Shown: positions 3,546-5,324 of the stretch, piece after piece | Layout of the letters: every line of letters starts with the position of its first letter | Numbering within the stretch: position 1 is the first letter of the stretch | Source: a virus | Strand: one strand, 5' to 3' | IMG/VR virus record: IMGVR_UViG_3300028364_000163 | Location: 1-21,978 of that record | DNA length: 21,978 nt | The notes under the pieces: model-generated | Told to the model about the DNA's origin: nothing | What the model saw: only the letters and a program-made list of their open reading frames with translations | The model's database searches: none | Position numbers and translations under genes: made by a program

Positions 3546-3719
3546 ATGACCATTGAACAGATAAGGGAAATTTTAAAAGACAGAAATCTGAAAGAGGTTT
3601 CACGAAGGACCGGAGTGCATTACGTCACGCTCTCAACAATCAGAAGCGGATCAAACACCAATCCAAAATACAACACAGTTAAGACTTTGGAGAATTATTT
3701 CAAAGAGCAGGTGGCGTAG
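3546..3719 (+). CDS. 57-residue helix-turn-helix protein (Cro-like)
   Basis: Small DNA-binding protein candidate. Residues about 1-50 read as a short four-helix XRE-type fold: MTIEQIREILKDR (helix 1), LKEVSRRTG (helix 2), VHYVTLSTIRSG (recognition helix position), then KYNTVKTLENYFKEQ. The SRRTGVHYVTLSTIRSG core is the classical HTH pattern. GGAGAAA lies a few bases before the ATG. Its stop overlaps the GTG start of the O-like gene by one base, so the two are translationally coupled. Its location, after a hairpin cluster and directly before the replication initiator, parallels the Cro/CII zone of lambdoid phages. A regulatory role over replication genes is inferred. Confidence 0.7.
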   Translation: MTIEQIREILKDRNLKEVSRRTGVHYVTLSTIRSGSNTNPKYNTVKTLENYFKEQVA

Positions 3720-4642
3720 TGGCAGCACTTCCATACATGCAGCTTTACGTTGCTGACTACCTGGCCGACACCATGCACCTGACCACGGAGGAACACGGCG
3801 CATATTTGCTTTTGTTAATGAACTACTGGCAAACAGGTAAACCAATACCTAAATCCAGGCTTTCAAGAATTGCACGACTGTCCAACGACCGTTGGATTCT
3901 CGTTGAAGCTTCGTTGGCCGAGTTCTTCAACGACAATGGGACGGAGTGGGAGCAGGCAAGGGTAGAGCGTGACCTAAAGCTGGTAAAGGATTCGCAAGAG
4001 CAGCGGGTGCTTGCCGGGAAAGCGTCAGCAGAGGCAAGAAAGCGGTCACAACAAGAGAAAGACAAACGGAATCCCAACGAGAAGCCAACGACCGTTGAAC
4101 GACCGTTACAACGAGAAGGCAACGAGAAGGCAACGAATATAGATATAGATACAGATACAGATACAGATACAGATACAGATACATATAAAGAAAAAGATCA
4201 AAAGCGGCCTGCGCCTGCGAGCGAAAACCCCGCCGATGTTCCAAGCGTTTCACCGCCAAGGAGCAAAAAGCCAGAAATTGATTACTCCAGCTGGCCAGAA
4301 ATTCCAGAGCCACAAATACTTTTTGACTGGATGGCTGCCAGAAAAAAAGCCAAAGGCGCAAACAGCCAAACGGCCATCAACACAATCGGAAAGGAACTGC
4401 ACAAAGCCGTGGATCTTGGATTTACTGTAGACCAATGCGGAGAACTGGCAGCCACACAATGCTGGCGAGGATTCAAAGCGGAATGGATGGTTAACCAGGT
4501 GGGAGGAAATTCTAAAGCGCCAAACCAGCAAGTGGGGTTCAACGGACAGCAGATAAAATCTAAGCAGCAGCTTCTTGAAGAAAGAAACGAGCAAGCCGTC
4601 AGAGACTTTGCAGGGGAAGGTGAAACCTATGACCAATACTGA
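3719..4642 (+). CDS. O-like phage replication protein with DUF1376 N-terminus
   Basis: A 307-residue protein, probably the replication initiator. Residues about 4-95 match the DUF1376 pattern (YMQLYVADYLADTMHLTTEEHGAYLLLLMNYWQTGKPIP), a winged-helix-like domain found at the N-terminus of phage replication proteins. Residues about 115-180 are a low-complexity linker with an IDIDTDTDTDT run. The C-terminal part (DWMAARKKAKGANSQTAINTIGKELHKAVDLGFTVDQCGELAATQCWRGFKAEWM) is helical. The start is GTG, fused to the upstream stop. The linker-coding DNA contains the iteron-like array and GATACA tract described separately, as lambda's origin lies within O. The stop overlaps the next gene, a P-like candidate. 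DUF1376 membership is confident; origin binding is inferred. Confidence 0.75.
   Translation: MAALPYMQLYVADYLADTMHLTTEEHGAYLLLLMNYWQTGKPIPKSRLSRIARLSNDRWILVEASLAEFFNDNGTEWEQARVERDLKLVKDSQEQRVLAGKASAEARKRSQQEKDKRNPNEKPTTVERPLQREGNEKATNIDIDTDTDTDTDTDTYKEKDQKRPAPASENPADVPSVSPPRSKKPEIDYSSWPEIPEPQILFDWMAARKKAKGANSQTAINTIGKELHKAVDLGFTVDQCGELAATQCWRGFKAEWMVNQVGGNSKAPNQQVGFNGQQIKSKQQLLEERNEQAVRDFAGEGETYDQY
3882..3933. repeat. Cluster of CAACGA motifs in both orientations (part of candidate origin)
   Basis: Inside the O-like gene, a 14-bp dyad CCAACG-AC-CGTTGG lies at 3882-3895. It is followed by TCGTTG at 3900-3905 and 3911-3916 (11 bp apart) and CAACGA at 3928-3933. The 11-mer CAACGACCGTT at 3883-3893 is identical to one unit of the array at 4075-4141. 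Probably extra binding sites for the same protein. Confidence 0.5.
4075..4184. other. Candidate replication origin: 11-bp iterons plus AT-rich GATACA tract
   Basis: Six CAACGA-type units start at 4075, 4086, 4097 (GAACGA), 4109, 4120 and 4131, that is every 11 bp with one extra base. Unit variants are CAACGAGAAGS and SAACGACCGTT. Units 2-3 contain a near-perfect dyad CCAACG-AC-CGTTGA. Immediately downstream lies an AT-rich tract: GATATA followed by six perfect GATACA copies (4148-4183). The 11-bp period is out of phase with codons and the encoded protein shows no matching repeat, so the pattern is a DNA feature. Phased iterons next to an easily melted tract inside an initiator gene is the lambda ori layout. 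The repeats are seen; the origin function is inferred. Confidence 0.6.
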
Positions 4643-5324
4643 CAAAAAAGAGTTTGGCCGCATCTGGATAGCAGCCTACGCGATGTACGGCAAAGATATG
4701 ACGCAGCCAATGCTGGAAATGCTTTTCAGCTCAATGGAAAATTACAACCTAGAAGATATCCGTTGCGGCCTTTCTGGACACGTCAAAAATCCAGACACTG
4801 GCCAGTTCCCGCCAAAGCCAAGCGATGTTATCAAGCACATATCTGGCAGCAGCCAGTCGGCAGCCGGCGAAGCATGGGCAAAAGTGGATTACGCTATTCG
4901 CTGCATTGGAAACTACCGAACGGTGGTATTTGACGATCCAAAAATTCACGCAGCCATTGAGCGCCTGGGTGGCTGGGTGAAGATAACCACACTGGATGGC
5001 AAAGAATATCCGTTCATTCAGAATCACTTTTTGAAAATCTACCAGGGGTTCACGGTAAATCCGCCGACCAAGTACCCAAACAAAATGATAGGCGCTTGTG
5101 AGCATCAAAACGAGCAGGAGTCTGGCTTCTTGCGCGGCAAGCCTGACAACCAGCCTGTACTGATTGGCGACAAGGAAAAGGCACGACTGGTCTACGAGGG
5201 AGGCAGTGTAGGTGGCATTGCACAGGTAACCCAAGGGCAGACACAGACTTTCCTAGATACAGGAATCAAGGCCCAGCTGGACCGGATAATTAAATCCAGC
5301 AAATATATTGAAAACGAAGAGTAA
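4629..5324 (+). CDS. P-like replication partner candidate (possible DUF6475)
   Basis: A 231-residue protein overlapping the O-like stop by 14 nt; AAGGTGA precedes the ATG at 4629. The N-terminal half (EFGRIWIAAYAMYGKDMTQPMLEMLFSSMENYNLEDIRCGLSGHVKNPDTGQFPPKPSDVIKHI) has the pattern of phage P / helicase-loader-associated domains: a target number of helices, then 'FPP.P.D.I'. The middle carries YRTVVFDDPKIHAAIERLGGW, a motif I associate with DUF6475 phage proteins. The C-terminus is polar and helical. No Walker motif is present, so it is not a DnaC-type ATPase. Position directly after the O-like gene suggests that it recruits the host replicative helicase to the origin. That role rests on context and weak pattern similarity. 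Confidence 0.55.
   Translation: MTNTDKKEFGRIWIAAYAMYGKDMTQPMLEMLFSSMENYNLEDIRCGLSGHVKNPDTGQFPPKPSDVIKHISGSSQSAAGEAWAKVDYAIRCIGNYRTVVFDDPKIHAAIERLGGWVKITTLDGKEYPFIQNHFLKIYQGFTVNPPTKYPNKMIGACEHQNEQESGFLRGKPDNQPVLIGDKEKARLVYEGGSVGGIAQVTQGQTQTFLDTGIKAQLDRIIKSSKYIENEE

Follow-up and report, generated by a model that had tools for sequence, protein, structure and literature searches.

A probable phage replication origin inside a DUF1376 initiator-like gene, marked by two helically phased arrays of half-sites

The window, that is the whole stretch of 21,978 bp of viral DNA analysed here, holds near 4.1 kb a region which we regard, at a probability of roughly 0.8, as a phage replication origin embedded in the initiator gene, where the DUF1376 protein would bind two arrays of short sites and an adjoining tract would melt. 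This region is most likely the start of phage DNA copying, because scores of distinct related genes preserve its layout. An origin at this place had already been proposed in a preliminary description of the DNA, and the proposal is supported by the spacing found in homologues, by the tract being the least stable duplex and by the replication-module setting. The features concerned are the following.

3546..3719, plus strand: small helix-turn-helix regulator gene (HTH_3, E=1.8e-5), directly upstream of the initiator gene
3719..4642, plus strand: DUF1376 initiator-like gene (307 aa, 924 nt), with N-terminal DUF1376 domain, disordered linker and helical C-terminal domain
3728..4069, plus strand: region coding for the folded N-terminal domain (residues 4-117), winged-helix-like in the AlphaFold2 prediction, proposed iteron binder
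3884..3932, no strand: array 1, with AACG at 3884 and 3929 and CGTT at 3890, 3901 and 3912, the CGTT steps being 11 bp
4065..4135, no strand: array 2, with AACG at 4065, 4076, 4087, 4098, 4110, 4121 and 4132 and CGTT at 4093 and 4104
4097..4231, plus strand: codons of the disordered linker (residues 127-171, pLDDT <50), carrying much of array 2 and the tract
4137..4195, no strand: A-rich tract and proposed unwinding element, with ATATAGATATA ahead of the six GATACA copies and TATAAAGAAAAAG after them
4310..4504, plus strand: region coding for the C-terminal domain (residues 198-262), helical in the AlphaFold2 prediction
4629..5324, plus strand: DUF6475 gene (PF20081, E=2.8e-26), downstream, in place of a helicase loader (P/DnaC) gene

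The initiator-like gene belongs to a replication module. Its GTG start overlaps the stop codon of the helix-turn-helix gene, and its product matches Pfam PF07120 (DUF1376) at the N-terminus with E=1.4e-21 (77.1 bits against a cut-off of 30.1) as well as PHROG 6451 (primosomal protein, E=8e-65), the match to PHROG 678 (replication initiation O-like) being limited to residues 107-281. An NCBIfam search gave no match, and a Rep-family domain was absent among the Pfam, PHROG and NCBIfam matches. In most annotated homologues a DnaC/IstB-like, P or DnaB gene comes next; in the window it is the DUF6475 gene. The DUF6475 protein, which corresponds to PHROG 10105 and occupies the slot held by DnaC or P in other phages, is a candidate new helicase loader. 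Two DnaA boxes (TTWTNCACA) were found in the window and none near 4.1 kb, where the DnaA box cluster that marks a host DnaA-dependent origin was accordingly absent, and a sigma-70 promoter search near the arrays found none. The cumulative GC skew of the window and of two complete phage genomes is uninformative on origin position since gene strand dominates the signal. Elsewhere in the window, the Gln/Asn-rich tail of the SSB gene carries a perfect 33-bp repeat of 2.3 copies (1622-1697).

Array 2 occupies nucleotides 347-417 of the 924-nt gene and lies thus inside it. The six CAACGA/GAACGA units reported in the preliminary description are present at 4075, 4086, 4097, 4109, 4120 and 4131, with a 12-bp step between 4097 and 4109 and 11-bp steps otherwise, and the dyad claimed for them is found as CAACGACCGTTG at 4086-4097. 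However, that description had overlooked the first unit, AACG 4065, and the whole of array 1, which sits ~190 bp upstream of array 2 in codons SNDRWILVEASLAEFFND of the DUF1376 domain. Two AACGACCGTT dyads are contained in array 2, and the 12-mer CAACGACCGTTG is common to both arrays, with perfect copies at 3883 and 4086-4097. Eight of the nine copies of AACG-N7-AACG in the window fall inside the initiator gene, in its two arrays. Furthermore, the strongest lag-11 identity of the window is a stretch of 55 bp from 4071 (36/55 matches), the maximum over 40 simulated windows being 29.

The encoded peptide does not account for these figures. With the 307-aa protein held fixed and synonymous codons drawn according to window usage, 0.71 half-site pairs at 11 bp would be expected in the gene and 8 were observed, while for AACGNNCGTT dyads the values were 0.13 and 3, and none of 20,000 such randomisations reached the observed count of either pairs or dyads. 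The 11-bp step had been said to run out of phase with the codons; the GATACA tract, unlike the ladder, runs in codon phase as (Asp-Thr)n. A shared 11-18-mer of the window is also read in different frames in the two arrays, as SNDRW in array 1 and PTTVE in array 2.

The tract is as first described, GATATA lying at 4142 and the six GATACA copies at 4148-4183. By calculation, duplex stability is lowest in the entire window at 4135-4195, over 40 bp as well as over 60 bp, and the top strand of the tract is asymmetric (35 A, 13 T, 9 G and 7 C in 64 bases).

The collection of DUF1376 relatives covered viral contigs and named phages as well as species and E. coli genomes, and gave a set of 52 non-redundant genes less than about 90% identical. 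The comparison with homologues that the preliminary description had proposed gave a strong answer, the repeat spacing surviving in relatives while the linker peptide drifts. Both arrays stand at matching positions in most of the 52 genes, even if array 1 is weak or missing in some members (L050, L067). Pooled over the set, lag-11 identity reaches 0.445 in the linker against 0.337 under synonymous randomisation (z=19.6) and 0.364 against 0.314 in the domain codons (z=10.2), these pooled z-scores being inflated because the sequences are related. Half-sites are in excess in the linker (336 against 134 ± 8 expected) and in the domain codons (287 against 152 ± 9), with no enrichment in the remainder of the gene (258 against 283 ± 14). 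Distances between half-sites of the same orientation peak at 11, 22 and 33 bp, and those of AACG..CGTT at 6, 17 and 28 bp, which is a spacing by one turn. The arrays have a common motif: 1547 six-mers are shared between arrays 1 and 2 against 384 ± 27 expected, an excess of about fourfold, while pairs of an array with a control region share six-mers at expectation and a control pair without either array is moderately high (242 against 178). Tested gene by gene, shared words are significant at p<=0.005 in 42 of the 52.

This conservation acts at the level of DNA. In array 1, codons 56, 58, 62, 65, 66 and 71 show strong synonymous conservation in homologues, R58 being encoded by CGT and V62 by GTT, and in array 2 the same applies to many of codons 120-138. 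Position 65 varies between Ser, Thr, Ala and Val, yet its codon is nearly always xCG, and so is that of position 129, which varies between Pro, Ser and Thr. In the contigs of L002, L003 and L035 nearly all AACG-N7-AACG matches fall in the DUF1376 gene, and in the complete phage UFJF_PfDIW6 arrays 2 and 1 rank above every other stretch of the genome by lag-11 identity. In the linker of L052 (4001-4867) there is a repeated 33-bp unit (STDAEQESNER) corresponding to exactly three 11-bp steps; here the ladder has apparently been expanded by duplication, which repeated the peptide too.

A second class (class II), whose proteins start with MHYYQFNI and which has at least 598 relatives in IMG/VR, was tested on 28 distinct genes. 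Both arrays are present, with the motif TGCG..CGCA instead of AACG/CGTT, array 1 being written in RMRTHCDCIAVVL codons and array 2 in those for DANALRTQSE, and the two often consist of identical DNA in another reading frame (RMRTHCDC against DANALRT). Words common to both arrays number 671 against 224 ± 19 expected, and the per-gene test of shared words gives p<=0.005 in 18 of 28. Array 2 is followed by a repeat of 7 bp, ACACAGA or a similar unit, which does not keep the codon phase. In L046, L047 and L051 the protein is closer to that of the window and the motif is TGCG; 17 class II genes with a C-terminal domain of the window type have on average the TGCG motif, with L155 and L219 as single exceptions. 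The motif tracks the N-terminal (DUF1376) class and not the C-terminal domain, which supports the earlier suggestion of a distinct iteron type paired with DUF1376.

Beyond these classes, the per-gene lag-11 test gave p of about 0.03-0.05 for the distant DUF1376 phages L068, L070 and L071, 0.09 for L072, 0.23 for L073 (Acinetobacter) and 0.68 for L074 (Bradyrhizobium); a scan with the L073 protein returned one relative only. Given that the most distant phages test borderline or negative, our claim on arrays is limited to the two well-sampled classes. In L063 (4000-5226), from a prophage of E. coli PS2Canimalfeces12, the DUF1376 gene has an inserted T5orf172 domain, and clusters of CTACG/CGTAG replace the usual motif with no clear 11-bp spacing; this protein is possibly an initiator that acquired a further DNA-binding domain along with sites for it.

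The stretch following array 2 was likewise compared. In class I it has the lowest stability of its locus in 17 of 55 cases and one of the three lowest in 32 of 55. Within the tract of homologues Thr is encoded by ACA in 97/97 cases against 246/869 elsewhere, and Asp by GAT in 172/178 against 395/810, a codon purity that is only supporting evidence because slippage could maintain it too. The tract of the marine class is 7-bp periodic and ranks least stable of its locus in 1 of 22. In the marine DUF1376 phages L154-L233 a 7-bp tandem tract (ACACANN), out of codon phase, follows array 2, its unit differing in length from the 6-bp GATACA unit. In L066, L120, L128, L133-L137 and L147 a purine-rich tract of the GAAGAGAAGAGAAG type (EEKRREE) replaces the DT tract after array 2, and Pseudomonas phage UFJF_PfDIW6 is among the homologues with such a tract.

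In the AlphaFold2 model the N-terminal domain shows helices at residues 7-17, 23-39, 45-51 and 56-66, a short beta hairpin and a long helix at 80-117, with pLDDT >90 across most of it. The Foldseek hits in the PDB were for the most part DNA-binding proteins of the winged-helix type, such as MarR and LexA, with no significant E-value, and against viral models it returned other DUF1376 proteins and a Lin1244/Lin1753-like domain; a DUF1376 profile run against PDB sequences found nothing above chance. The DUF1376 N-terminal domain is probably a winged helix. In some homologues the C-terminal half contains a DnaT DNA-binding domain.

Together, the arrays, the tract and the predicted fold suggest how the origin may work. 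The N-terminal DUF1376 domain would bind the AACG/CGTT half-sites, one per helical turn (11 bp), in both arrays, and a multimer assembled over array 2, on a single face of the helix, would strain the adjoining GATACA tract, which would then melt. The C-terminal domain could next recruit the putative helicase loader encoded just downstream, and replication would start there. As for array 1, it may reinforce the array 2 complex, form a loop with it or regulate it.

Other explanations of the arrays were considered. They could be in-gene operators through which the DUF1376 protein or another regulator represses the gene, with no role in an origin, since a repressor is also compatible with phased arrays of sites and a helix-turn-helix gene lies directly upstream. 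We consider this unlikely: the sites are ~165 and ~350 bp into the gene, not close to a promoter, phased sites were looked for upstream of the gene and none were seen, and the arrays remain in homologues whose upstream gene changes (YdaT, cII-like, HTH). Moreover, a melting tract and a helicase-loader neighbour suit an origin better. It is very improbable that a partition, packaging or recombination site has come by chance to lie inside a replication gene; phased arrays do occur in centromere-like sites too, but those described here are always within the initiator gene, usually before a loader gene, across different kinds of phages, and their motif changes along with the DUF1376 class.

There is a slighter chance still that the motifs are kept by an RNA-level element, such as an mRNA structure or a translational control. 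Folded as RNA, positions 3870-4200 give z=-2.6, a value explained by arrays 1 and 2 being in part inverted repeats of each other; array 2 alone gives z=-1.0, the values of homologues lie between -0.85 and -3.9 with differing structures and no common fold, and no Rfam match was found. A spacing of 11, 22 and 33 bp in either orientation is, on the contrary, a pattern of duplex DNA. That the ladders are a by-product of a conserved or repetitive peptide combined with codon bias has a nearly negligible likelihood, even though the (DT)n tract keeps in step with the codons and the peptides NDRW and NDRST recur. Indeed, the excess persists when proteins are fixed, the window and several homologues read an identical 11-18-mer in different frames between the arrays, differing amino acids retain identical bases, and the marine tract has a period of 7 bp out of codon phase.

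Returning to the origin, we lean towards a wider view in which DUF1376 proteins would be a distinct and widespread class of phage initiators. They would assemble on 11-bp ladders of half-sites that occur twice in the gene encoding them, once within the codons of the folded DNA-binding domain, and specificity would shift in evolution by the rewriting of both ladders together with the domain. One stretch of DNA would then encode a DNA-binding domain and would most likely also be the target of that domain, and the site sequence changes in step at two places of the gene. If the origin reading holds, a testable job falls to DUF1376, which occurs in hundreds of phage contigs as a domain of unknown function, and the position of the origin becomes predictable for each DUF1376 phage contig from its sequence.

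In the portions of the open literature available to us, no such arrays were reported in DUF1376 genes, DUF1376 appearing just as an entry in gene lists with no origin attached. The iterons of phage lambda are 18-19 bp long; the window has instead an 11-bp one-turn ladder of 4-bp half-sites and not longer dyad iterons. A second array within the codons of a folded domain is a further difference from lambda, and the N-terminal domain is DUF1376, with no match to the lambda O family. Lambda carries iterons and an AT-rich tract in the middle of gene O, and in lambda and Stx phages, as proposed here, the origin lies in the initiator gene and consists of repeated dyads followed by an AT-rich, strand-asymmetric tract (PMC7466680, PMC5043065). 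The helicase-loader gene comes next in those phages (PMC7466680, PMC5043065), a place taken by DUF6475 in the window and by DnaC-like, P or DnaB genes in most annotated homologues. By this analogy the origin anatomy is lambda-like, in a variant distinct from the ori-lambda type; given that the iteron form and the initiator family differ, it is not a lambda-type member though it would work alike. In iteron plasmids (P1, F and RK2 type) helix-phased initiator sites also adjoin an A+T-rich region (PMC5043065), as in the window, but here no Rep-family domain was found, and the sites are inside the initiator gene and both inverted and direct.

The Rac prophage of E. coli, reported to have an active origin, oriJ (PMC3945230), offers another likeness in its ydaU-ydaV pair, where a DUF1376 gene is again followed by a DnaC-like one. 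No position of oriJ within Rac, in ydaU or elsewhere, was found in the portions of the open literature available to us. In the linker of ydaU (L062:3949-4806, K-12) TGTT/AACA half-sites, some of them 11-12 bp apart, are followed by AATAAAGATACAGATAAAGAT; these half-sites precede a GATACA/GATAAA stretch. The motif is a different one, the statistics are weaker (p about 0.05), and ydaU would seem to be a weaker relative. Its half-site stretch is a candidate for the position of oriJ, and ydaU gives a lead for locating the Rac origin.
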